61,787 nt of DNA from Bacilli bacterium (lineage in GTDB: Bacteria > Bacillota_I > Bacilli_A > ML615J-28 > CAG-313), in contig JAFTPH010000065.1 in the NCBI GenBank assembly GCA_017463365.1, positions 1-61,787 of the forward strand, given 5' to 3'. Under the pieces are notes generated by a model. The model did no database searches and had not been told where the DNA came from. It was given only the letters and a program-made list of their open reading frames with translations. Both the position numbers and the translations under genes were made by a program. Positions 44,410-61,549 of the stretch are shown here, piece after piece. Each line of letters begins with the position of its first letter. Within the stretch, counting starts at the first letter, position 1.

Positions 44410-45495
44410 TTATATTTCGAAATATAATTGATATTTAGGTTTATATTCATTAAACATATGCCATCCTAAATATCCTTCTTTTTGAAGTCGACCTATTAAC
44501 ATAAATATTGGAATACTTTGACTTTCAGCAAAATTATTTAACTTACTCAAAGAAAAATCATTTTCATTAATAAATTTTTCATATTCATCTTTATTTATTA
44601 ATTGATTATTAGCAAAATTATTTGCGAAAATTTCGTCTTCATCATTTATTTTATCTTTTTCTAAACTAATAGTTAAATGACGTTTTTTATTCCTAAAAGC
44701 ATGACCAATTTCATGATAAATATTAAACCATATCTTATCAGCGTCTTTACCATGATCATTAATTGCTATCATTATTGTATTATCACTAGATATCCATTTA
44801 GTTACAGCACTTACATTAGATCCTTTTAAATAAGGAAGAAACATTAGTTTTATACCCGCCTCACTTAAGTATTCCTTTAATAAAGGCGTAAATTCTTCGG
44901 GTGTTTTGGACATTAAACTTTTAATTTTAGGCAGATTTTCTAATAATTTTTGTTCACTATATGGTTTACACTCTATTTCTTTAGAAACATACATTGCTAG
45001 TGAAATCCAGGCATTTCTAAGAATTAATTGTTTTTCATCTATATCTTTTAAAACACTAGTTCTACAAAAAGCAAATAAATCATTTGACTTTAAACAACTA
45101 AGTGAATTTACCATAAATAATTTTTTAACTTTATTAATAACTTCTTTTTTATTTTCTTTATTTAAATCTATTTTTAAAATACTACTCAAATATTGTTTAT
45201 CAAAATAAGATAAAATTTTTAATTCTTCTTCCATTTGTTTTACAAGCTCAATATTTCTTAAATATTCATTATATGCTGTTTGTAAATTTAACCATACATT
45301 AACACTAGTACCAAAAAAATCTGAAAGTTTTGATGCTATATCAAAAGTAATACTAGCTTCACCACTTATAATTTTAGAAATTGTTTTCCCCGTTGTACCA
45401 ATCCTTATAGCAAATTCATTTTGAGTCATACCCAATTCATTTATTGCATCTTTAATATATTCTCCTGGATGAGAAACGTAATTAGTTTTACTCAT
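44410..45495 (-). CDS. higA: HigA-type antitoxin fused to ImmA/IrrE metallopeptidase
   Basis: 361 residues. The first 90 residues form a HigA-like XRE domain (HPGEYIKDAINELGMTQNEFAIRIGTTGKTISKII). The C-terminal part holds the zinc motif HEIGHAFRNKKRH of ImmA/IrrE peptidases. The start is ATG 45495, eight bases inside the end of higB (ATGAGTAA); an upstream GTG codon sits too close to GGAGG. It probably represses the operon through the 21-bp palindrome at 45864-45884 and neutralises HigB. The peptidase could cleave the antitoxin or another regulator; that is inference. Confidence 0.9.
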   Translation of the reverse strand: MSKTNYVSHPGEYIKDAINELGMTQNEFAIRIGTTGKTISKIISGEASITFDIASKLSDFFGTSVNVWLNLQTAYNEYLRNIELVKQMEEELKILSYFDKQYLSSILKIDLNKENKKEVINKVKKLFMVNSLSCLKSNDLFAFCRTSVLKDIDEKQLILRNAWISLAMYVSKEIECKPYSEQKLLENLPKIKSLMSKTPEEFTPLLKEYLSEAGIKLMFLPYLKGSNVSAVTKWISSDNTIMIAINDHGKDADKIWFNIYHEIGHAFRNKKRHLTISLEKDKINDEDEIFANNFANNQLINKDEYEKFINENDFSLSKLNNFAESQSIPIFMLIGRLQKEGYLGWHMFNEYKPKYQLYFEI

Positions 45496-45841
45496 AATGT
45501 TCACTTACCTCCATTATTTTTATTACAATACATTTTATAAACATCAAATTTTCATTATCCATACTTTTCATAATATTATTATCTTCATCTAATGGATATA
45601 ATATTAACCGATATTTAGAAGGTTTAAATATAACAATAGAATATTGATATTTTCTATCTCCTTTTAATTGATGCAACCGATATTGTGGCAATCTTGAAAC
45701 ATCTAATAAATTCTCTGCTTCTTCAAGATAGTTTATTAAATCGATTAATTTTCTTCCTACATCAGAACCATATTTTTTAACAGCAATTTTTATATCAGCA
45801 CATTCTTTTTCTAATTTTTTAGTCTGGAATATAATTTTCAT
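45488..45841 (-). CDS. higB: HigB-type RelE-superfamily toxin
   Basis: 117 residues. The HigB/RelE pattern is seen in SRLPQYRLHQLKGDRKYQYS followed by KYRLILYPLD. It would cleave mRNA at the ribosome when not bound by HigA. The start at 45841 is chosen for AAGGAGAATTGTT right before it; the longer frame starting at 45916 would cover the promoter and operator. It comes before its antitoxin, as in HigBA systems. Confidence 0.88.
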   Translation of the reverse strand: MKIIFQTKKLEKECADIKIAVKKYGSDVGRKLIDLINYLEEAENLLDVSRLPQYRLHQLKGDRKYQYSIVIFKPSKYRLILYPLDEDNNIMKSMDNENLMFIKCIVIKIMEVSEHYE

Positions 45842-45863
45842 AACAATTCTCCTTCCTATTTTC

Positions 45864-45892
45864 ATTTTACCATAATGGTAAAATAAATGCAA
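45864..45892 (-). promoter_or_regulatory. higBA promoter with operator in the spacer
   Basis: -35 TTGCAT (45887-45892), 17 bases, -10 TAAAAT (45864-45869). A 21-bp palindrome ATTTTACCAT-A-ATGGTAAAAT (45864-45884) covers the -10 and most of the spacer, so a bound repressor would block RNA polymerase. Confidence 0.8.
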
Positions 45893-45925
45893 GAGAAGTA
45901 TAAAATTATATTCCAAAATAAAAAG

Positions 45926-46188: not shown

Positions 46189-47211
46189 TTAATCTTTTTT
46201 ATCAAAATTTTCTATTACTTTTCTTACTTCATTTTGTAATACTTCTATGTCAGGCATTACAGTTGTATATTTAGCAGCATAAATGTTATTTTGTAGTCCT
46301 TGAATTGATAGTTCTGCGATTGATTGTTCTTTATCAGCACATAATATTATTCCAATTGGATCTTGGTCTAGTTCATCATTAATTTCATTTTTATAATAAT
46401 TAATATACATATTCATTTGACCAAAATTTTCTGGCTTTAACTTATTGATTTTTAGATCTATCAGTACATAAGCCCTTAGAATTTTATTATAGAATACCAT
46501 ATCCACATAATAATTCATTCCACCAATACTAATTCTTTGTTGAGAGCCAACAAATATAAAACCTCTGCCTAGTTCTAGTAAGAAATCCTAAATATGTTCA
46601 ATTAATGCTTTTTCTAAATCTGATTCTAGCATTGGTTTTTCTTCTGGTAAACATACAAACTCTACAACCATTGGATCTTTTATAAAACTATCAGGTGTAT
46701 TATATGTAATTCCTTTTTGAGCAAGTTCTAATACGATTTCTTTATTAACTTCTCCTTTTGATAATAATAATCTTTGATATAACGCAGAATCTATTTGTCT
46801 TTCTAATGCTCTTACACTCCAATTAGAGTTTTCACATTCATGTTCATAAAATGCTCTTTCATTTTTATCTGAAATTGCTAATAATAACAAATAATGAGAC
46901 CAACTTAATTTTCCAGACAGTGTCTGGAATTTTGGATATTCAATAAAAAACTTTCTCATACTAAATAAATTAGACTTAGAAAATCCTCTTCCAAATTCAT
47001 TTGTTAATTCTTTTGAAATTTCTTTTAAAAGCCTAGAACCATATTCAGCTTTTAAATTACCATTTTGTTCTTCTTCTACAATTCTTTTACCTATGTTCCA
47101 ATATGTTTGAAGCATTATTGTATTAACATTAGTAATAACAATTTTTCTAGCTTGTTCAATTATATTTTTTAAATCTGAATATAGTTCAACATTAACAATT
47201 TCATTTTTCAT
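46189..47211 (-). pseudogene. DUF1016 (YhcG-like) PD-(D/E)XK nuclease 1 with in-frame amber stop
   Basis: A single frame of 340 codons interrupted by TAG at 46588-46590, where copy 2 has a Glu codon (RHIEKFLLELG). The N-terminal 207 residues (QTLSGKLSWSHYLLLLAI) and the C-terminal part (YYVDMVFYNKILRAYVLIDLK) both read normally. The nuclease motif is changed as well: DLK instead of ELK. The gene has a good promoter (TTGTAA-17-TATAAT) and the ribosome site AGGAG. DUF1016 proteins are associated with restriction loci. This copy is probably inactive. Confidence 0.85.
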
Positions 47212-47671: not shown

Positions 47672-48685
47672 TTAATCTTTATTGTTTTTGTTAATAACTT
47701 TTTCTACTTCTTTTATTAACTCCTCCTTATTAGGTAAATATAATACATATTTTGATGCAAATATATTATTTGATAATCCTCCTAAAGCATATTCTAAATT
47801 AATATTCCCTTTATCGGTACACAAAATAATACCAATCGGTGGATTATCCCCCTCATCATTAATTTCCGTTTTATAATAATTTAAATACATATTTAATTGT
47901 CCGACTGCTTCAGGCATTAATTTAGTTGTTTTTAATTCTATTAAAACATAGGATTTTAAAATTTTATTATAAAATACCATATCAACATAATAATGATGGT
48001 TATTAAATGTCACCCTTTGTTGTGTTCCTACAAACATAAATCCTTTACCTAACTCTAGTAAAAACTTTTCAATGTGTCTAACAAGAGATTCTTCTAATTC
48101 ATTTTCAATAATAGGTTTATCTTCAGGAAGATCTAGAAATTCAAATACATATGGATCTTTAACAATATCTTTCGGATTTGCTATTTCATTGCCTTTTAAT
48201 GCTAACTCTAGTACTCTTTCTTTATTATTTTCTCCATTTGATAATAATAATCTTTCATATAATGAAGAATCAATTTGTCTTTTTAATTCTCTAACACTCC
48301 ATCTAGAATTAATACATTCTTTCTCATAAAAACTTCTTTTATTGACATCAGAAATAATTAATAATTCACAATAATGACTCCATGATAATCGTTCAGACAG
48401 TGTCTGAACAGTGCCATATTCTTTATAAAAATTTATCATATTCCAAATATTAGCTCTTGAAAAACCTTTTCCTAATTTTTTAGTTAACATTTTCGATAGT
48501 TCTGTTATGGACTTATTAGTTTCAGAGCTATCATCACGATAATATTCTACTAACATTTTACCAATTTCCATATATGTTGTAAGTAACGTATAATTTATAG
48601 TTGAAACAACATGTAATCTTGCATCAATAATTAGGTGTTCAATTTTGCTAATAATTTCATCTTTTGAATTAATTAAATTTTTCAT
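47672..48685 (-). CDS. DUF1016 (YhcG-like) PD-(D/E)XK nuclease 2
   Basis: 337 residues. The N-terminal helical DUF1016_N domain includes QTLSERLSWSHYCELLII; the C-terminal nuclease domain shows HHYYVDMVFYNKIL, VLIELK and GIILCTDK, with the D...ELK triad intact. It is intact, unlike copy 1. ATG 48685 aligns with the start of copy 1 but lacks its ribosome site and -10, because the repeat block is fused directly to the ATG. A GTG-started longer frame (to 48766) runs through the repeat. Expression is doubtful. Confidence 0.85.
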   Translation of the reverse strand: MKNLINSKDEIISKIEHLIIDARLHVVSTINYTLLTTYMEIGKMLVEYYRDDSSETNKSITELSKMLTKKLGKGFSRANIWNMINFYKEYGTVQTLSERLSWSHYCELLIISDVNKRSFYEKECINSRWSVRELKRQIDSSLYERLLLSNGENNKERVLELALKGNEIANPKDIVKDPYVFEFLDLPEDKPIIENELEESLVRHIEKFLLELGKGFMFVGTQQRVTFNNHHYYVDMVFYNKILKSYVLIELKTTKLMPEAVGQLNMYLNYYKTEINDEGDNPPIGIILCTDKGNINLEYALGGLSNNIFASKYVLYLPNKEELIKEVEKVINKNNKD

Positions 48686-48686
48686 A

Positions 48687-49090
48687 TTTTTTACAACAAA
48701 GATAACATTAATTTTTGTATAAGAAATAGTGCAAAAATGTCCAATTTTAGTCAAAATTTTAGGCACTGATTATTTTGATTTTTGATTGTTTTGATTGTCC
48801 CTCACACGAGACTGGCGCCCCGCTTTGTGTCCAATAATATCCAAATATTCGACCTCCCCCTGCCTTTTGATATCCCAAAAAATATAGTGGCATTGGCGCC
48901 CCCGCTGCTACGTGTCCAATTTTCTAATTTTTAATACCCCCTATGCTACAGATCCATCATCCTTGTGTGCTTTTGTAGCAGCTTTTATGCGATTTTTGTA
49001 CAAAAAAAGCTTATAGGCAACCAGAAATAGGTTACTTATAAGCTATTTTGCAATTATAGGTTCAGATGCATTTTTGGACACTTGGTTTGT
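48687..49090. repeat. Intergenic repeat unit B
   Basis: The 493-base gap 48686-49178 is mostly this unit: the 74-base block shared with unit A, the GC-rich CGAGACTGGCGCCCCGC, and the conserved AGCTTATAGG.../TTATAAGCT hairpin (49008-49044). It ends in TTTTGGACACTTGG like the terminators of the DUF1016 genes. The rest of the gap, 49091-49178, holds the orphan start described next. Confidence 0.8.
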
Positions 49091-50810: not shown

Positions 50811-51140
50811 CTACCCTAATTTATCATACTTAGTCGATACACCCTTTGCTTTATCTACTGGATACTTAAGCTCTGTTTTGTCCATCTTCTTATTTATTAC
50901 ATCTACTATATCTACATCTAACACTAATGACATTTGAATACAATAATTCATAACATCAGCTAATTCTTCCAATACTGCTTGTTTATCATATTCTGCATCA
51001 TTCCATTGGAAACATTCCAATAATTCACTAGCTTCTATAGATATAGACTTTGCTAAATTAGATGGTGTATGAAACTGATCCCAATCACGGTCTTTATTAA
51101 ATTTATCGATTCGTTGTTTTAATTCTTCTAGTTTTTCCAT
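50811..51140 (-). CDS. MazG-like nucleotide pyrophosphohydrolase
   Basis: 109 residues. The MazG metal motif is visible as ISIEASELLECFQW and AVLEELADVMNYCIQ (ExxE, then ExxD). It hydrolyses NTPs or dNTPs. It lies 11 bases after the helicase/nuclease gene and probably acts with it, for example by adjusting nucleotide pools in defence; this is inference. Confidence 0.9.
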   Translation of the reverse strand: MEKLEELKQRIDKFNKDRDWDQFHTPSNLAKSISIEASELLECFQWNDAEYDKQAVLEELADVMNYCIQMSLVLDVDIVDVINKKMDKTELKYPVDKAKGVSTKYDKLG

Positions 51141-51151
51141 AAAATAATCCT

Positions 51152-53014
51152 CTATTTAAGAAATGATTTTAAATATTTATTTAACTCTTCATCTTCACAA
51201 TAAACATAAGTTCCATAGATTGCTCTTGTTAATAAAACTTTATATGTATTTCTAATCATTTTGGATGCTGTAACAATATCAGCTTTACTGATTCCACTTG
51301 CTTTATCTGTTTTAGCGTTTTTTGTAGGATCAAATATTATTCGACCATTTCTATATATAATATCTTTTCCTATTATTACTCCTGCAAAGTCCATATCAAC
51401 TCCTTGAATAGTATGTATTGAACCTATTCTATCATTTTGTTCTTCATCTAAAATATAAGGTATTTCAGTATCTTTATTCCATTTCATTTTAAATTTTCCA
51501 TCTTCTAAATCGAAATCAAATACTGAATCATCTTTCTTACTTTCCCAATCATGAGTATACCCAGCAAGTAATCTTGATTTTGGATAGTCATTTTGTTTTT
51601 CTTTTATAGCTTCGTACATTTCAGACGGAGAATCAAAAATCCTAAATTCATAATTTTTAGGTTTATAACGTTTTATCATGTTATTATAACCCAAAAAAGA
51701 GTTTATAAAACTTATATAATTTTTCCCACCTGTACATCTAAATTGAGAAGTTAAATGTAATTCTTCTGCTTCAAAAATTTCTGATTTATATTTTTTTGCA
51801 TATTCTCTTATTCTATCAATTGTTAAATAATCATCTTTAGTTACCATTTGATCTTCATCAATAAAGAAGACATTAACACGTGAGGCATAAAAAATTTTAT
51901 CAATCATATCAACATCTTTTTTAACACCATGCCTAAATTTCCAAGTAAATGCTCTATGCGCTTCATCAACTATAATACAATCAAAATCAAACTCGCTGCT
52001 TCTAGAAAATGTAGCCATTTTCTTGAATAAATTATCTATCGCTGACTTTTTATAATCATTGTTAGTTAATATATTAGAAAACAAAGCTCTTGGAGTAAAA
52101 TTTGGAGTACAATAACAAACATTACAAGGAGCAGATCCATCACTAGGATTTAAAAGCTGTCCCATTGCGTTAATTGCAACTACACTTTTACCTGTTCCTG
52201 GACCACCTTTTATTATTATTGTAGCACGTCTATTATGTTCGATTGCCCATAAAGTTTCAGAAACAATCGTTGAAACAGATGTTGCTTGTTCATCATCAAG
52301 TGTAAAGATAGGTTCTCCTTTTAATGCTTTAAACATTAAACTCGCAAAATTTTTAGATGGCCTAATTTTTGCATTATCTATTTCATATAATAATTTGCGA
52401 TTACCTTTATTTACATATTTTTTTACAAATTCATATAATTTTTCGGCATCATCTTTTAAAAATATTGGACTCTTTTCTAAAAATGGAAATAATGTTTTAT
52501 TATCTACAACTGATACATAAATATTATCAAGATTATGTAAAAATGAACAAGAATTAATATTAACATTATTATCTTGAATATATTCATTAAAACCATTCAA
52601 AATATTTTCATATCTATACGCCTGATAAGATGGATGCAAATAATCTCTTGGGCCAGCTCCTCCAAATGCATATACAAAGTTGGGTTTATTAGAGTTTTTT
52701 ACATTACTCCATTGTTTAAGTTCCACTACAACTAAATTATCTTCATCATTAAAATCTTTTCCATATATTAACAAGTCTATTCTATTGCTCGTAACATCTA
52801 ATTTGTATTCTATTGCTACATTAATATCTTTAGACATGTCTTCATGATCTAATGCTCTTGCAACAAATGGCAATGATTCATTCCATGAATCTATTTCTTT
52901 TTGATTATTAATATTAAATCCAGATAAAATTAACCCTTTTTGTATTTCTTCTACAATTTGAGTCTTATTACAATTTTTTATAAATTTGTCGAGTGAACTT
53001 TCATATATTATCAT
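51152..53014 (-). CDS. DUF2075 SF1-type helicase with N-terminal PD-(D/E)XK nuclease
   Basis: 620 residues. The N-terminal nuclease-like motif is RIDLLI with Asp80 and Glu98-Leu-Lys100 (VVVELKQW). Walker A is GGPGTGKS (about 270-277) and Walker B is CIIVDEAH (about 346-353). The motif VI-like VLLTRAIYGTYVY is near the end. The fold resembles Schlafen-like DUF2075 proteins. A TTGTAA-17-TAAAAT promoter (53049-53077) carries a TTTCGAAA in its spacer. The operon also contains a MazG gene and a small protein. Confidence 0.9.
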   Translation of the reverse strand: MIIYESSLDKFIKNCNKTQIVEEIQKGLILSGFNINNQKEIDSWNESLPFVARALDHEDMSKDINVAIEYKLDVTSNRIDLLIYGKDFNDEDNLVVVELKQWSNVKNSNKPNFVYAFGGAGPRDYLHPSYQAYRYENILNGFNEYIQDNNVNINSCSFLHNLDNIYVSVVDNKTLFPFLEKSPIFLKDDAEKLYEFVKKYVNKGNRKLLYEIDNAKIRPSKNFASLMFKALKGEPIFTLDDEQATSVSTIVSETLWAIEHNRRATIIIKGGPGTGKSVVAINAMGQLLNPSDGSAPCNVCYCTPNFTPRALFSNILTNNDYKKSAIDNLFKKMATFSRSSEFDFDCIIVDEAHRAFTWKFRHGVKKDVDMIDKIFYASRVNVFFIDEDQMVTKDDYLTIDRIREYAKKYKSEIFEAEELHLTSQFRCTGGKNYISFINSFLGYNNMIKRYKPKNYEFRIFDSPSEMYEAIKEKQNDYPKSRLLAGYTHDWESKKDDSVFDFDLEDGKFKMKWNKDTEIPYILDEEQNDRIGSIHTIQGVDMDFAGVIIGKDIIYRNGRIIFDPTKNAKTDKASGISKADIVTASKMIRNTYKVLLTRAIYGTYVYCEDEELNKYLKSFLK

Positions 53015-53278: not shown

Positions 53279-53776
53279 TTAAATTTTTGGTACTAATGTT
53301 TTATAATCTATTGACTTAGTTATTAAATCCCATTTACCGACTTGCATCTTTTTAATTTTTCTCCCATCCCCAAAATCTAATAAATCTTCTCTTGATAAAT
53401 TATTTAATATTTTATTCAAACTTCCGATACCACTTGATGAAAGCAAAAAAGCCTCTGATGGATCACACAATTTACAATATGACCATAATTGTCCTAAATC
53501 ATGTAAATTTAACTGTGTTTTCTTTGCTTCAATAAAAACAATATTAGTCTTATTTTTTTGAATTATAATACCTAGAACATCTATTTGTATATCAAGACCA
53601 ACTACTTGAGGATATTCATTAATAACACCATATTCTTCCAAGTATAAATCTAATGTTCGCGTATGCGAATCAATTGTTATTATTTTTGAATTTTTATATT
53701 TATCAGATAAATATTGTTGCAACCATATACGCATTGGTTCATACAATTCAATTTCTTTTAATACATTATTCGCCAT
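53279..53776 (-). CDS. Small PD-(D/E)XK nuclease subunit of the RM operon
   Basis: 165 residues. The nuclease motif is IQIDVLGII (Asp66) and FIEAKK (Glu83, Lys85), with an N-terminal helical EPMRIWLQQYL segment. It overlaps the LAGLIDADG-like gene by 11 bases and is last in the operon; a terminator follows. It is too small to be a usual type II enzyme on its own, so it probably acts with the adjacent DNA-binding-like protein. Confidence 0.78.
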   Translation of the reverse strand: MANNVLKEIELYEPMRIWLQQYLSDKYKNSKIITIDSHTRTLDLYLEEYGVINEYPQVVGLDIQIDVLGIIIQKNKTNIVFIEAKKTQLNLHDLGQLWSYCKLCDPSEAFLLSSSGIGSLNKILNNLSREDLLDFGDGRKIKKMQVGKWDLITKSIDYKTLVPKI

Positions 53777-54638
53777 AACCTAAACTTTTAGCTAAATCAG
53801 TCCATGAATCAAAATGCTTTCCACGAATTTCTTCTGGTAAGGATAGATCATTCTCTCCTGGATGATTTGGTTTTTTTCCTCTTCTTATAGTCTTTTCCCA
53901 GTAAAACTTATGCGTTTTATTTGGATCCTTCTTAGTTAATAATTCAGCACTATATTTTTCAAGTGCTTCTTGTTTATGTTGAATATTAAATCCTATAGGC
54001 AAGAATTCATTTGCATATATTTTAATTTGATGTTCCTTTTTCCAATATAATGTCTTCCCTTCGTCGTATTTTTTTAAATGCCCATCACGAAAATTAGGAT
54101 GCCCAAAGTCTATCGTTTGAACAGGAATATCAACATCTTTAAGCATATTTGCAATATCAATTACCATATACCAATTACCTGGTATTTCAATGTAAACTCT
54201 ATGTACTCCTTCTTCTCCAAAAGCAATATTACTTTTTCTTATATGAGCAGTAACATCCGCAATCCCTCTTAATAGGGATTTTTTCTCATCTGTAGTCAAT
54301 AAATATAATTCACTGTTCATTTTCATAGTTGAATGATGATTCCCATTACTTATTAATCTTAATATTTCTCTGATAACATAATCATTATTTTTCTTTACAA
54401 ATGACATTTTCGTTGAATGTTTTGTTTGTGTAATTGTAAGTTCATGACCAATTAGAGGTTCAATAATTCCTCTAATATCTACTGTACTTGCTTTTACATA
54501 TATTGCAACATCTTTCTGATCATCAGTATATAAATTTTTATAAGGAATATCAATTATAACAGTAGTATCAATATTACCTCTTTGAATTTCTCCATTTCCT
54601 AATATCATTCCTATTAAATATGCCATTTCTATATTCAT
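53766..54638 (-). CDS. Degenerate LAGLIDADG-fold protein, possible DNA-recognition subunit
   Basis: 290 residues. Two LAGLIDADG-like helices are seen: YLIGMILGNGEI (7-18) and SLLRGIADVTAHI (121-133). At the position of the catalytic acid, the first has Asn and the second has Thr, so cleavage by this domain is not expected. The C-terminal 80 residues are basic (KTHKFYWEKTIRRGKKPNHP). The gene begins one base after the C5 methylase stop and overlaps the nuclease. It is probably a sequence-specific DNA-binding subunit of the operon. Confidence 0.65.
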   Translation of the reverse strand: MNIEMAYLIGMILGNGEIQRGNIDTTVIIDIPYKNLYTDDQKDVAIYVKASTVDIRGIIEPLIGHELTITQTKHSTKMSFVKKNNDYVIREILRLISNGNHHSTMKMNSELYLLTTDEKKSLLRGIADVTAHIRKSNIAFGEEGVHRVYIEIPGNWYMVIDIANMLKDVDIPVQTIDFGHPNFRDGHLKKYDEGKTLYWKKEHQIKIYANEFLPIGFNIQHKQEALEKYSAELLTKKDPNKTHKFYWEKTIRRGKKPNHPGENDLSLPEEIRGKHFDSWTDLAKSLGYGE

Positions 54639-54639
54639 A

Positions 54640-55722
54640 TTATTTATTATCTCCTAATACTTCGTATATTTTATCTGCTATTGCTTTTGCCATTAACGGT
54701 GGTACAGCATTACCAATTTGTTGGCGTATTTGTACTTTAGGTCCAACAAATATAAATTTATCATCAAATGATTGTAACCTTGCAGCTTCTCTAGGTGTAA
54801 TAGAACGATTCAAAAAAGGATGATTGTTAGTGCCATTGGAACATGCATCAAATCTAGTGTCTATTGTCGGTGAAACATAATCCCATTTAAGTCTCCCCCA
54901 TGTCCCTGAAAATTGTTGTTTACCTAACATTTCTTCTGGAAGATGTTCTTTGCCACATTCAGGTGGAATCATTTCTAATTTTTTTATTGCAATATCTGCG
55001 TGTCGTGAAGCTTGATGGTTATATAACTTAAGACTACCTTGTCTCATAAGTTTTTGATATTCCGATGATGATTCAGTAATATATTCTTGTTCAAATGCAC
55101 CTTCGCCAGAATTCAAATAAGCTAAGTCAAATATTGCATTTTTAACTGTAACATTGTTTTCACATTTTTTTATCGGCAATGGTATACTACTATGTTTACA
55201 ACATATAAATATGGCTCTTTGTCTAGATTGAGGGACTCCAAAATCCGAAGCAGTTAAAATTCCATATTCCACAAAGTAACCTAATTTTTTTACACGTTTG
55301 ATTATTTCATCTTTGAACCATCCTGCTGATGTTGATAATAGAGCTTTTACATTTTCTATTACAAATACATCTGGTTTTATTATCTCTACTAAATTTAGGT
55401 ATTCATTGAACAAATAATTTCTTGGATCATCTAGACCTAGTTTTTTTCCTTTTAAAGAAAAACCCTGACACGGTGGTCCACCAATTATCATATTAACTTT
55501 AAAATTAAAACTTGTTTTTACAATCTCGTCTTTAATTTCTTTATTTGTTATATCTCCATTAATTATATAAACATTTGGCATATTATGCTTGAAAGTATTT
55601 AAAGCAGTTTTATTAAAATCTACAGCAACTACAGTTTCAAAATTTTCATTTTTTTCTATACCGTATGAAAAACCACCTGCTCCTGCAAATAAGTCTAATA
55701 TTCTAAATTTTTCAATCTTCAT
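54640..55722 (-). CDS. C5-cytosine DNA methyltransferase
   Basis: 360 residues with all main motifs: LDLFAGAGGFSYGIE (I), GGPPCQGFSLKG (IV, catalytic Cys85), IENVKALL (VI), QSRQRAIF (VIII) and IGNAVPPLMAKAIAD (X). It methylates C5 of cytosine in a specific site. It overlaps the preceding adenine methylase by 11 bases (start inside its end). Both methylases and the two downstream genes form one RM operon. Confidence 0.96.
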   Translation of the reverse strand: MKIEKFRILDLFAGAGGFSYGIEKNENFETVVAVDFNKTALNTFKHNMPNVYIINGDITNKEIKDEIVKTSFNFKVNMIIGGPPCQGFSLKGKKLGLDDPRNYLFNEYLNLVEIIKPDVFVIENVKALLSTSAGWFKDEIIKRVKKLGYFVEYGILTASDFGVPQSRQRAIFICCKHSSIPLPIKKCENNVTVKNAIFDLAYLNSGEGAFEQEYITESSSEYQKLMRQGSLKLYNHQASRHADIAIKKLEMIPPECGKEHLPEEMLGKQQFSGTWGRLKWDYVSPTIDTRFDACSNGTNNHPFLNRSITPREAARLQSFDDKFIFVGPKVQIRQQIGNAVPPLMAKAIADKIYEVLGDNK

Positions 55723-56761
55723 ATTTTATTTTTCCTTTTGTTGGTAATGGATTTTTATTTTTAATTAATATTCTTTTAAATATTTCTTTACCACCAATTG
55801 TTGGCTTAAATAAATCGTATTCGTTATCTGATCCATGATTGGCTTCCCCAATAATATCAAATTGATCAGCATTAAATTTATTAATTATTGTAATTGGAAC
55901 TCCCATTATACCTTCATAATCATACGGTATGTCAGTAATTTTTTTCACATTAATTGCATCATACAAATCATATTTCGGATAATCAATAGGGTTATAGCAT
56001 TTAGTCAAATTAATTCTTTTATGTCTTCTCTCAATATCTAAATTAGTCAACCACATAGCATTTCCTAGACTTCTCCATTTTTGTCCATCTTTATCTACCC
56101 AATATCTTGTTTTTCTAGGTTCAGAACAATTTGGAACTTTAAACTTCATTTCACCAAATTGGTATCCTGTCCAAGCTTCATTTTTTTGAATAAGAGGAAA
56201 TATTTCTTTATATGTCAATGCATTTTGATTACCAATCAATAAATATTTTTTTTTATAGGTAAGTATTTCAGAAATCAATTCTTTAAATAATGAGAAAGGT
56301 GGATTTGTAACAATTATATCGGCTTGCACTAAATATTCTATACATTCATTACTTCTAAAATCACCATCACCTTTTAATTCTTTAATTACATTTTTAAATC
56401 TTAGTAATTTTAAAATATATTCATCCGAAAACACTTCATTTAATTCCGAAAACTTTTCTATATCCAATACGTATCCGCTATTTTTCCTTTTTGATTTAAT
56501 AAATTTAGTTTGCGTTCCTGCAACTTTTGAAAATCCATATGATGTACATATTAACCTTTTTAATCTTAGGGTGTTAAAATTTTTTAAAAAGTATTTACAA
56601 AAATTTGATTCAAATGGATCATCGCAATTACATAACACGGTTTTATTTTCAAAATGCTTTGAATAATGAGAGAGTTCATTTTCTATGGTATCATAAGTTG
56701 TATAAAATTCATCATCTTTCGTATTTTTCGCGTATTGAAGATTTGTATTCTTATTTGCCAT
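55712..56761 (-). CDS. EcoRI-type adenine-specific DNA methyltransferase
   Basis: 349 residues. The family start DDEFYTTYDTIENELSHY and the catalytic NPPF (153-156, ADIIVTNPPFSLFK) match the EcoRI methylase group. It is expected to make N6-methyladenine. The start at 56761 is eight bases after AAAGGAG; the next ATG upstream is too close to that site. It is first in the RM operon, behind a TATAAT (56793-56798) and a TTTCGAAA site. Confidence 0.92.
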   Translation of the reverse strand: MANKNTNLQYAKNTKDDEFYTTYDTIENELSHYSKHFENKTVLCNCDDPFESNFCKYFLKNFNTLRLKRLICTSYGFSKVAGTQTKFIKSKRKNSGYVLDIEKFSELNEVFSDEYILKLLRFKNVIKELKGDGDFRSNECIEYLVQADIIVTNPPFSLFKELISEILTYKKKYLLIGNQNALTYKEIFPLIQKNEAWTGYQFGEMKFKVPNCSEPRKTRYWVDKDGQKWRSLGNAMWLTNLDIERRHKRINLTKCYNPIDYPKYDLYDAINVKKITDIPYDYEGIMGVPITIINKFNADQFDIIGEANHGSDNEYDLFKPTIGGKEIFKRILIKNKNPLPTKGKIKYED

Positions 56762-56792
56762 ATCCATTACTCCTTTCATCATTTTCTAATAT

Positions 56793-56916: not shown

Positions 56917-58047
56917 CTATTTTGTACTCCCTACATAAATAACTTCATTGTGGTATTTTAAATAACGTTCCATATCAGGATTATATTTAATATCATATAC
57001 TTGTCCATCTATCAAGTGTAATTTTTCTATATTTTCTTTACTAATTAAATTTGAAATTAATATAGTCCCATCTTTTTTAAATGTAATTGATCCACTATCA
57101 AACAATCTATCGAAAGTCGCAGAAAGAAGCAATCCATTATCAACTGATAATCTTTCTTCATTGTTTGAAACAGCCCACGGTTTAATATGACTTGCAATTA
57201 AAACTTGTGAAATATTAATATCTGTAATAATACATCTATTATTATATTTTTCTTTTAGTTTATCTCTAAATAAACCTTGTCCTTTTCTTGCTTTAATTAA
57301 TGTTTCTTTTTCAGTTTCAGTTAACTTTTTATCTTTTTGCAAATTTTCTATTTCTTCTACTTCTTTCTTACCTAAATCAGTATTATGATAAATATAGCAA
57401 CGATATCTTTTTAATGAATTGCTATACATCCTTTTTCCTTTTTTATCTTTTTCAATAAATGATGGAGTTTTCATTATGATTGATATTGCTAAATCTAGTT
57501 CCATTAAATTCATTTCTTCTAATGGTTTACTTATTATACCTTCCTTTAGCATATCATCAGATACGACTGATAGGCCACTTATATAGTGGTCTATTGATCT
57601 TTTTGATAATGGTTCACCATCAGCCTTTTTATACATTTCTTTTAACCACTGTTCAAAGTTCATACCTAGTTTTTCTTCAATCAATGAATAATGTTTTTCA
57701 TCAATTTTATGAACAGTTCTAAATTGATTAATAAATACTTTGCATTCATTATGACTTATATAAGGTGAAGAATAGTTAATCTTGTCAATTCTTACATCCA
57801 CAGTCAATTTATTATTACAATAATTTTCTGGTGAGTTTTCTAAAATATAAGGTGCTTTTACAATTGTTCCAATTGCATATATACCACTTTCATAACTCTT
57901 ATTTTGAGAACCAACATGTAATAACACAATATTTCCAACATTCATGGATGAAGTTGCTAGAAAAGGCTCAACGTGTCCAACCCTTTGTACCTTTTCAAAC
58001 ATATTCCATTGATTTAAATTTACTGGTTCATAATAATATGCACTCAT
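56917..58047 (-). CDS. EVE-HNH modification-dependent restriction endonuclease (type IV-like)
   Basis: 376 residues. The N-terminal 130 residues look like an EVE/PUA-type modified-base reader (GNIVLLHVGSQ, then GIYAIGTIVKAP). The C-terminal HNH nuclease is clear: RCIITDI, ASHIKPWAVSN, LSVDNGLLLSATFDRLFDSG. Enzymes of this build cut DNA with modified cytosines. The ribosome site AAGGAGG lies in the end of the small preceding frame. It must avoid the host's own methylated DNA, so its target is probably a modification other than those of the local RM operon. Confidence 0.85.
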   Translation of the reverse strand: MSAYYYEPVNLNQWNMFEKVQRVGHVEPFLATSSMNVGNIVLLHVGSQNKSYESGIYAIGTIVKAPYILENSPENYCNNKLTVDVRIDKINYSSPYISHNECKVFINQFRTVHKIDEKHYSLIEEKLGMNFEQWLKEMYKKADGEPLSKRSIDHYISGLSVVSDDMLKEGIISKPLEEMNLMELDLAISIIMKTPSFIEKDKKGKRMYSNSLKRYRCYIYHNTDLGKKEVEEIENLQKDKKLTETEKETLIKARKGQGLFRDKLKEKYNNRCIITDINISQVLIASHIKPWAVSNNEERLSVDNGLLLSATFDRLFDSGSITFKKDGTILISNLISKENIEKLHLIDGQVYDIKYNPDMERYLKYHNEVIYVGSTK

Positions 58048-58291: not shown

Positions 58292-61252
58292 TCAATCGTC
58301 ACATTCTAAACTAAAATATTCTTTGTCAAAATCATCAGTTTCTCTTTTTACAACAATTCCTATATGCGCACCAGCTGATAAAGGCTTATATTTTTTATCT
58401 TCATGTTTTTTATTACCCTCAGCTCTATTGTTATGAAGTGATTTAATATCTACCTTCCCAACAGCTAAATAGCCATTTTTTCCACCTTTTAATCTTACTA
58501 TATCTTTGTAAATAGTAGGAAAAGGTCCTGTTATTTTGGAATCACCATATTCTGATGTATTTGCTAAACTAACATAGCAATATAATTCTCTAGCAGTAGC
58601 ATCTACTATAGATGAAAAATAATTTGTATCTCTGTTAAATACTGGTACAAATAAATTCGTGATACTATCTAATAAATCACAACGTTCTTTTAATGATGTT
58701 AATTCATAACATAGTAAATTTGTAAAAAATCCATTTCTAAATGAAACAATTTTAGGGCTTCTTTTTTCAGCATCATTAAATAACAATTTATTTTCATTAA
58801 ACATCTCAATTTCTTCATATGTATAATATTTTTTCTCTCTCATATCACAAAACATTAGTTTATAAACGCTACAAACTTTAAAAGGATATAAGGATGCAAC
58901 ACAGTTTGCAACCCTTTGTTCTTTGCTCCCAACACTTTTATTTACTATAAATTGTAATCCAAATGTTACTTGAATATTATGTCTTCTTGCAAAAAACATA
59001 ATATCTAACATCCAAGAAAATGGAATAGATAACTCGGGTAGAACTAAATGATCTATCTTATTTTTTATTGCTTCATTTAATATGTGGTTAATTAAACGTT
59101 TATATTTAACATCACAATATGTTTCTTTCTTTTTTAATTTTTCTTTTAATATGTTTTCTTTTAGTGGTATACTAGCTATTCCTATATTATAATCTCCATA
59201 GTCTATAAGTTTTTTTGTATAGTTCTCTAACCTCTCTTTATAATCTTCATCTGTTTCGTTAATCCCCCTTTTAGGAGCAACAAGTTGATTTAGCAATTTT
59301 ACTATTTGCTTGCCATTATTTGCTGTATACTCAAATTCATGCTTTCTAATAGCACGTTCATCATAATAAACTGCTCCAATATTATGCGGAGTAACAAACA
59401 TATCTTTTTCAATTTTATTTATTTTACAATATTCATCTATTATTTGATCATAATTTATATTACTACAATTATTAAAAATCTCTTGCATAGAAAAATATGC
59501 ACTTAACTCCTCAATAGATACCCAATAAGGTAAATATTCTTTCTTTTTTTCATCTAGTTCATATACATAATCGCTTATTTTATTTTTCCTCAACAAATAT
59601 AATGGTTTTGTTGTAATATTTCTATTAATCATTAGTGATTTTAGCCATTTATCACTATTAATATTTTTATCTATTTTTTTAGCAGATAAAGTCATATTCT
59701 TTAAATGTTTTAAAATTAATATTAAATTATAATTTGTCATTTTTTTGACTTTTTCTTCATTTTTATAATCCCCATTTTCAAAAACAAATTTAATATTATT
59801 ACTAATATATTTAAACATATTATCATAATATCTTTTTACATATTTACGTCCAAAAATATTTAACAAATTAAATATCTTTTCCCAAAATTGATGATATTTT
59901 ATTCCTTCATCATTTGATAAAACATCAATTAACATTTCCGCTATTTTACTACCTTCTTTTTCTATATCCTCTTTTGATACATTCTTGTATAAATTAAAAA
60001 GTTTTGTCAACATTATTGATAATGAATATTTATCAATTGATGTAGTTTTTAAATCACTTATTTTATTTAAATATTCACTGCTTTGATATCTAAATAACTC
60101 ATTTACTAATGTTTTCTCCGTTATAGCATCTTCTACATAATATCCTACATCGCTAACCCGCATCAGTATTTTGTTTTTATATATTTTAGATAAGATATCT
60201 TTATCTGCTTTTTTGAAATAATACATATCAATTTTTTTAGGATTTATTTCTAATTTATTAACGAAATTATTATCTTTTAATTGTAGATGTTTGAAAGGAA
60301 TAAAGCATTCATTATCTTTGAAAGTCAAAAATCCAAATGTATTTTCTATAATTTTCTCTATGTTTAATTCTTTTTTGTTTTTTATAGTAGCATCAGATAA
60401 TGGATAAACAATTATCATATCATCTACATATCTACCATAATATCCCTTACCTTCTACTTGACCTCTCACATATTTATCATACTTTGATAAGGCGATATTA
60501 CTTATAATTTTTGAAGAATATAATCCTATTGGCAAAACATATCTTTTTGTATTTTTTTTAAGTTTTTTGTATTTTTTTAAAAGATTATTATATTTACTAT
60601 ATATTTTTTCAATTACTAAACAATTAACATCATTATCTAATTGTAAATAATCTTTAATTTCATCAAAATTAACATAATAGTTATAATAGTATTGTTTTAT
60701 ATCATAATTAATTAAAATTAAATCATCATTTGGATTTAACCTTCTTATCGCTGAAAATGCATTATTTCTCCAAGATGTATATTTATAAAAGTATGGTTCA
60801 AAGAAAGTAGAATTATCAATTTCTGATTCAAATAATTTAAAACTTGATAATACGTTACCATATATAGAATCATCATCCAAAATTTTTTTATTATAACATT
60901 CTTTACCTACATCTAATGTCCATAAAACATCAAGTAAAAAAATTTCAATTGGAGCATCTATAAAAAAATTAACTGAATCAACATAATTTTCATCGGTTAA
61001 TCCATATATTATGTTTTTCGACGCTTTTTTCTCAACTTTTTTAGGTAAAGAAAATATAGATATTTTATCAAGATATAAATCAAATAATTTCAAATCTCCA
61101 TTATATATTTTAGCCACTTCATCGAAAGTTTTTTCAAAATTTTCTTTTGATTCGAAATCAGCTATCATATATTTATACTTAATGTTATTTGAATAATAAA
61201 TATCACTTTTCATCTTGACATATGCTTTTTTTACTTCATCAACTGTTACCAT
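58292..61252 (-). CDS. Reverse transcriptase-nitrilase fusion (defence-associated RT, DRT type 1-like)
   Basis: 986 residues. RT motifs: INYDIKQYYYNYY (Asp183 region), YVLPIGLYSSKIISNIAL (239-256) and YYGRYVDDMIIVYP with the YVDD at 275-278. A C-terminal nitrilase (C-N hydrolase) domain from about 700 has Glu740 in VLPELS and Cys848 in NLLCYEL, fitting the Glu-Lys-Cys triad. This RT-nitrilase arrangement is known from the UG1/UG5 (DRT type 1) phage-defence RTs. Start ATG has AGGAGGATATT. Middle region is 300-700, unassigned. Confidence 0.88.
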   Translation of the reverse strand: MVTVDEVKKAYVKMKSDIYYSNNIKYKYMIADFESKENFEKTFDEVAKIYNGDLKLFDLYLDKISIFSLPKKVEKKASKNIIYGLTDENYVDSVNFFIDAPIEIFLLDVLWTLDVGKECYNKKILDDDSIYGNVLSSFKLFESEIDNSTFFEPYFYKYTSWRNNAFSAIRRLNPNDDLILINYDIKQYYYNYYVNFDEIKDYLQLDNDVNCLVIEKIYSKYNNLLKKYKKLKKNTKRYVLPIGLYSSKIISNIALSKYDKYVRGQVEGKGYYGRYVDDMIIVYPLSDATIKNKKELNIEKIIENTFGFLTFKDNECFIPFKHLQLKDNNFVNKLEINPKKIDMYYFKKADKDILSKIYKNKILMRVSDVGYYVEDAITEKTLVNELFRYQSSEYLNKISDLKTTSIDKYSLSIMLTKLFNLYKNVSKEDIEKEGSKIAEMLIDVLSNDEGIKYHQFWEKIFNLLNIFGRKYVKRYYDNMFKYISNNIKFVFENGDYKNEEKVKKMTNYNLILILKHLKNMTLSAKKIDKNINSDKWLKSLMINRNITTKPLYLLRKNKISDYVYELDEKKKEYLPYWVSIEELSAYFSMQEIFNNCSNINYDQIIDEYCKINKIEKDMFVTPHNIGAVYYDERAIRKHEFEYTANNGKQIVKLLNQLVAPKRGINETDEDYKERLENYTKKLIDYGDYNIGIASIPLKENILKEKLKKKETYCDVKYKRLINHILNEAIKNKIDHLVLPELSIPFSWMLDIMFFARRHNIQVTFGLQFIVNKSVGSKEQRVANCVASLYPFKVCSVYKLMFCDMREKKYYTYEEIEMFNENKLLFNDAEKRSPKIVSFRNGFFTNLLCYELTSLKERCDLLDSITNLFVPVFNRDTNYFSSIVDATARELYCYVSLANTSEYGDSKITGPFPTIYKDIVRLKGGKNGYLAVGKVDIKSLHNNRAEGNKKHEDKKYKPLSAGAHIGIVVKRETDDFDKEYFSLECDD

Positions 61253-61282: not shown

Positions 61283-61549
61283 CTAAATTATCCTTATATC
61301 CGCTTCAGCAAAATCCAACGTATATTCGTGATTTATTGTTTTGATAAAACCATTTACTTTAATTATACAATTAAGTTCTTCTTTTATTATTCTTATTAGT
61401 TCTTGTTCGTGGGTTTCTCCTTGTTCTATTTTGCCACCAGGAAACTCCCATTTAAAAACACATTCACCTTTCGATCTCCTTTGACAACAAAATACTTTGT
61501 TGTCTTTTTTTATTATTGCTGCAACAACTTCATAATGTGGTTTATTCAT
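61283..61549 (-). pseudogene. Truncated Nudix (MutT-like) gene
   Basis: 88 residues. MNKPHYEVVAAIIKKDNKVF and the Nudix box GGKIEQGETHEQELIRIIKEEL are clear, with Ile instead of Glu after the conserved Arg. The frame stops at FAEADIRII, about 40 residues short of the usual MutT length, 30 bases before the RT start. It is probably a remnant left when the RT gene joined this locus, though a short functional enzyme cannot be excluded. Confidence 0.7.

Follow-up and report, generated by a model that had tools for sequence, protein, structure and literature searches.

What kind of restriction enzyme could belong to an operon in which two DNA methylases are followed by a LAGLIDADG-fold protein without catalytic acids and by a small PD-(D/E)XK protein? 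The operon lies in a window of 61,787 nucleotides (the whole stretch analyzed, contig JAFTPH010000065.1 of a Bacilli bacterium), where four minus-strand genes occupy positions 53279-56782 in the order m6A methylase, C5 methylase, LAG, and PDX, as we call the last two:

55712-56782, minus strand: m6A methyltransferase of the EcoRI family, 356 aa (PF13651 EcoRI_methylase, E 2.7e-118; NPPF motif intact)
54640-55722, minus strand: C5 methyltransferase, 360 aa (PF00145, E 4.1e-73; PPCQ motif intact)
53766-54638, minus strand: LAG, LAGLIDADG-fold protein without catalytic acids, 290 aa, proposed DNA-recognition subunit (reading frame, AlphaFold2 model, fold matches, and alignment)
54591-54617, minus strand: first LAGLIDADG motif, LIGMILGNG, LAG residues 8-16, where N15 replaces the catalytic acid
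54246-54272, minus strand: second LAGLIDADG motif, LRGIADVTA, LAG residues 123-131, where T130 replaces the catalytic acid
53279-53776, minus strand: PDX, small PD-(D/E)XK nuclease, 165 aa, proposed cleavage subunit (reading frame, model, and fold match)
53522-53581, minus strand: PDX active-site stretch D66 ... E83-A-K85, invariant in 32/32 aligned sequences

The frames of the two methylases overlap by 11 nt, those of the C5 methylase and LAG lie 1 nt apart, and the start of PDX overlaps the end of LAG, again by 11 nt. The operon described in the earlier note is real, but the m6A methylase frame extends to 56782, beyond the limit noted there; the four-gene layout itself was confirmed by the reading frames, family matches, folds, and alignments. 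The genome (1.74 Mb in 65 contigs) contains a single LAG and a single PDX gene. Neither protein was named by Pfam, NCBIfam, PADLOC, or PHROGs, and sequence searches of the PDB with both, profiles included, returned nothing significant. Some relatives gave weak Pfam matches, to Hom_end or LAGLIDADG_3 for LAG and to YhcG_C or PDDEXK_3 for PDX, in line with the predicted folds.

The cassette sits in a defence and toxin-antitoxin island (38427-61549), in which the following genes were also found, together with two Panacea/MqsA-like proteins:

58292-61252: reverse transcriptase with nitrilase (UG5 type)
56917-58047, minus strand: HNH endonuclease, restriction endonuclease-like
51152-53014: Schlafen-type helicase
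50811-51140: MazG-like protein
47672-48766: YhcG nuclease, with an N-terminal piece at 46588-47211
44410-45916: HigB-like/HTH-IrrE pair

An 88-aa NUDIX (MutT-like) frame (61283-61549), ending just before the reverse transcriptase gene, covers only the first part of the ~130-aa families and is probably truncated. The HNH gene, on the same strand 134 nt upstream of the cassette, contradicts the statement that no ordinary restriction endonuclease is present. That statement still holds for the system itself, of which the gene is not a member: it is missing from all the related loci and was rejected as the cognate nuclease.

Folds and active sites of LAG and PDX

The AlphaFold2 model of LAG, built without template, had a pLDDT of 89.3 and a pTM of 0.89 (one plasmid sequence row was omitted from the alignments used for structure prediction). 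When it was submitted to Foldseek, LAGLIDADG proteins made up 50 of the 50 PDB matches listed, among them bI3 maturase (E 2.2e-6) and I-AniI (E 2.3e-6), and the target TM was 0.70 for I-Tsp061I and up to 0.63 for both I-DmoI and WhiA. The model contains the two pseudo-symmetric alpha-beta-beta-alpha-beta-beta-alpha halves with LAGLIDADG helices that characterize this fold, and the halves, P1 and P2, align by profile comparison (E 1.3e-4) with LIGMILGNG and LRGIADVTA in register.

The acid that ends each LAGLIDADG helix in homing endonucleases is absent from LAG. In the alignment of 37 sequences, the first acid site (position 15) is N in 35/37 and otherwise G or C, the second (position 130) is T in 35/37 and otherwise I or R, and none of the 37 carries D or E at either position. 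Read from their sequences, L074 has G and I and L076 has A and R at these sites, and the second motif of the distant member L061, LSGIIDGRGS, is a plain LAGLIDADG motif in which the acid has become R. The two LAGLIDADG-like helices lacking both acids that were noticed at the outset are therefore a feature of this LAG and of every relative checked. The window LAG has A131-H132 at the end of the second helix, where nearly all relatives have G131-Y132.

Conserved polar residues (R134, R147, Y149, E151, Q204, and K206) were located on the predicted strands of LAG, in line with the proposed role in DNA recognition. With many invariant polar residues kept, LAG might also nick one strand through unusual residues while PDX cuts the other, and the pair would then be genuinely Type IIT, with a different active site in each subunit. 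BtsI and BspD6I, in which the large subunit nicks one strand (PMC4081073, PMC2909958), have this layout. However, the canonical acid positions hold N/T, G/I, C/R, or A/R, and E17 close by is replaced in some relatives (by T in L044 and by V in L059), which makes nicking by LAG unlikely.

The PDX model (pLDDT 93) had the restriction enzyme PaqCI as its best structural match (E 4.9e-3, probability 0.99, TM 0.45), with further matches to EcoT38I, BamHI, and MspJI; the predicted structure plainly resembles restriction enzymes, though at a modest score. E8, D66, E83, K85, and Q96 do not vary in any of the 32 aligned sequences, and D66, E83, and K85 form the D ... (D/E)XK pattern on the conserved core, which, with the fold match, bears out the intact D...EAK first read from the sequence.

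Conservation and spread of the LAG-PDX pair

Related loci were collected from GTDB genomes (46 loci), two plasmids, two phage genomes, four viral contigs, and several further genomes. Among these ~60 loci, the PDX gene directly follows the LAG gene in every intact one. The single exception, L075 (G902), is decayed: an N4C-type methylase and LAG are left, with a transposase gene upstream, PDX is missing from both locus and genome, and the adenine methylase was not found. When viral contigs, plasmids, and phages were searched with PDX instead, exactly the LAG-bearing records came back. The co-occurrence of LAG with the nuclease and the methylases, which the earlier note had proposed to check, thus holds in all intact related loci, and its reservation that the nuclease gene might be absent from related operons applies once, to the decayed L075. 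Partly broken copies were also seen: PDX is split over two frames in L027, and in Streptobacillus notomytis (L038:6354-9366) all four genes are in pieces with broken frames.

The LAGLIDADG fold is typical of proteins from mobile elements, and LAG, which has it, could be a decaying homing endonuclease that invaded a restriction-modification (R-M) operon by chance. The median pairwise omega was 0.062 for LAG and 0.051 for PDX (simple Nei-Gojobori estimates, with some dS near saturation), a value at which LAG is not decaying; by these estimates, both proteins are under strong purifying selection (omega ~0.05). The gene order is the same in the ~60 loci across phyla, and LAG is never free-standing or borne by an intron or intein but always lies inside a methylase operon. 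No intron, intein, or active relative was found among the relatives, nor did the homologue check reveal one with catalytic acids or one standing as a homing enzyme. With conservation contradicting it, a chance invader in decay is hardly credible.

Pairwise distances were most strongly correlated for LAG and PDX (r = 0.84) and for the C5 and m6A methylases (0.81), against 0.62-0.77 across the pairs (40 loci; the sequences being related, only the ranking was used). Higher correlations within than across pairs are expected for a restriction module (LAG-PDX) and a modification module (C5-m6A), suggesting that LAG behaves as a part of the restriction module.

This ranking also bears on a reading drawn from the presence of WhiA among the structural matches, in which LAG would bind DNA as a WhiA-like regulator of the operon and PDX would, on its own, be an ordinary small homodimeric restriction enzyme. 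The smallest complete restriction endonucleases, such as PvuII, are indeed about the size of PDX. However, every intact locus keeps LAG together with PDX, LAG co-evolves more tightly with PDX than with the methylases, the overlap of the two frames suggests a fixed stoichiometry, and having two strand-specific methylases implies that the site is asymmetric. Moreover, LAG lacks the HTH domain that WhiA uses for DNA binding (PMC3781837), and we regard the regulator as quite unlikely. For the same reason, WhiA, taken by the earlier note as the analogy for a recognition role, turned out to be a poor one: WhiA/DUF199 shares with LAG a LAGLIDADG domain that has lost its catalytic residues, but it is a transcription factor with no nuclease partner that binds DNA mainly through its separate, added HTH domain (PMC3781837). 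The proposed recognition subunit is very probably a dead LAGLIDADG protein.

The hosts of the related loci include Bacillota, Bacteroidota, Spirochaetota, Desulfobulbaceae, Gastranaerophilales, Streptobacillus, and others, in addition to phages and small plasmids. Cultured strains with the system include L. plantarum P9, [Ruminococcus] torques ATCC 27756, and Anaerotignum neopropionicum DSM 3847. As LAG identity among relatives is mostly 66-79%, this distribution across phyla points to extensive horizontal transfer. In L. plantarum, two plasmids (6.5 and 8.8 kb) carry methylase, LAG, and PDX genes amid mainly replication and toxin-antitoxin genes; in two phage genomes, the methylase, LAG, and PDX genes stand alone near one end of the record. 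On the evidence of its sequence, the cassette is a real, conserved, and mobile R-M system.

Methylases associated with the pair

The LAG-PDX pair always lies downstream of DNA methylases, which are of three unrelated kinds, so the linkage of nuclease and DNA methyltransferase genes typical of Type II R-M systems is found with three unrelated methylase sets. Class A loci encode an EcoRI-type m6A methylase and a C5 methylase, as two genes or, in many relatives, as one fused protein of ~700 aa. Class B loci (L041-L044, L052, L053, and L058, with L072 known only in part) encode an Eco57I/N6_Mtase-type (gamma-type) m6A methylase and an N6_N4_Mtase with a TSPPY motif, the latter probably an N4C methylase. 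Class C loci (L059, L061, L074, and L076), of which no relatives were found in the viral contigs searched, carry only one methylase gene in the operon, for a C5 enzyme, and encode larger proteins (LAG 440-491 aa, PDX 190-225 aa). In the tree, L055, whose methylases are of class A, branches apart from the main class A clade, and at least two label changes are required by well-supported branches; methylase sets have thus been swapped.

A family of ~150-aa proteins is encoded next to class B systems, upstream of LAG or downstream of PDX (L042:7497-7985, L043:2970-3419, the latter assigned by position only, L052:6374-6823, L053:5199-5648, and L058:2875-3330), with two tandem gene copies in L072. 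Longer proteins with weak similarity to this family precede LAG in L045/L056 and in L055, where a NOV_C domain is present. The ~150-aa neighbor may have an accessory or regulatory role as a subunit.

Relatives of the m6A methylase were also considered as a route to the recognition site. This approach was abandoned, as the other EcoRI-type methylases on plasmids adjoin DUF262 proteins and yield no site. On small plasmids of lactobacilli, the EcoRI-family adenine methylase gene overlaps or adjoins the DUF262 gene (L086:1934-4106, L087:802-2981, and L089:1983-4333), and this two-gene unit is perhaps another kind of R-M system.

A proposed two-subunit enzyme and its known counterparts

We attach a high probability to the cassette being a complete, mobile Type II R-M system whose restriction enzyme has two subunits, a dead LAGLIDADG reader and the PDX cutter; the recognition, the complex, the cutting, and the asymmetry are what we infer from the data above. 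LAG would be a monomeric scaffold with two-fold pseudo-symmetry, which has lost both acids and would have been kept as the reader of a short asymmetric site. PDX, made from the overlapping frame, would dock on LAG and bring the PD-(D/E)XK active site. Bound to an unmethylated site, LAG would place PDX for a cut inside or near it. The m6A and C5 methylases would mark one A and one C, which probably lie on different strands of the site, and either methylated base would stop LAG from binding, thereby protecting the host. Since PDX has a single active site, a double-strand cut would need two copies, either two per LAG or through dimerization of two site-bound complexes, as in FokI.

The asymmetry of the site is suggested by the different chemistry of the two methylases, and such a site could be read by a monomeric LAGLIDADG protein but hardly by a symmetric PDX homodimer. 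As class C operons contain a single C5 methylase, an asymmetric site would not be general. The sites of LAGLIDADG enzymes are usually 14-22 bp long, much longer than those of methylases; LAG would therefore have to use only part of its surface.

Of the known systems, Type IIT enzymes come closest. Their definition requires two distinct catalytic sites: recognition and the cleavage of one strand fall to the larger subunit, cleavage of the other strand to the smaller, and protection comes from two methylases, in some cases fused (PMC4081073). BtsI, BsrDI, and BspD6I have the same layout of a large recognizing subunit, a small PD-(D/E)XK subunit, and two methylases (PMC4081073, PMC2909958), and the BtsI subunits (~38 and 18.6 kDa, computed from the concentrations in PMC2909958) are similar in size to LAG and PDX. 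However, the large subunit of BtsI has its own PD-EXK site (P57, D58, and E72) and nicks one strand (PMC2909958), whereas that of our system has an acid-free LAGLIDADG fold and one kind of active site is visible. The reported PD-EXK motif also led us to reject BtsI and BsrDI as LAG homologues. Classes A and B share the two unequal subunits and two methylases of Type IIT, class C operons encode only one methylase, and recognizable catalytic residues were found in PDX only. The system would thus work like a Type IIT/IIS enzyme while falling outside the Type IIT definition.

FokI-like Type IIS enzymes and PaqCI also separate recognition from PD-(D/E)XK cleavage units, but in a single chain and with other recognition folds. 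The homing endonucleases I-DmoI, I-AniI, and I-Tsp061I share the fold of LAG (target-normalized TM 0.44 to 0.70) and have two LAGLIDADG helices in one chain; unlike them, LAG has no catalytic acids, is regularly accompanied by a nuclease and methylases, and lies outside any intron or intein. The restriction design that the earlier note called unusual is therefore so only in its recognition fold, the layout being known from Type IIT (PMC4081073, PMC2909958): the new element is the LAGLIDADG recognition subunit. The three main catalytic themes of Type II enzymes listed in the standard review PMC4081073 are PD-(D/E)XK, HNH, and GIY-YIG, all recurring in homing endonucleases, and LAGLIDADG is not mentioned there. 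In the open-access literature, to which our search was confined (priority is therefore not asserted), no LAGLIDADG protein was described as a restriction subunit.

The LAG-PDX pair probably represents a widespread class of enzymes in which a LAGLIDADG recognition protein, derived from a homing endonuclease, would have lost its own catalysis and recruited a PD-(D/E)XK nuclease, the pair staying fixed while unrelated methylases were swapped around it. Such a change of methylase type around a fixed restriction module bears on the evolution of R-M systems. LAGLIDADG proteins rank among the major scaffolds in the engineering of DNA recognition. If our reading is true, a natural dead-LAGLIDADG reader with a separate nuclease would be a model for programmable cutters, in a family with many natural variants, and the LAGLIDADG fold would contribute recognition, not catalysis, to restriction.
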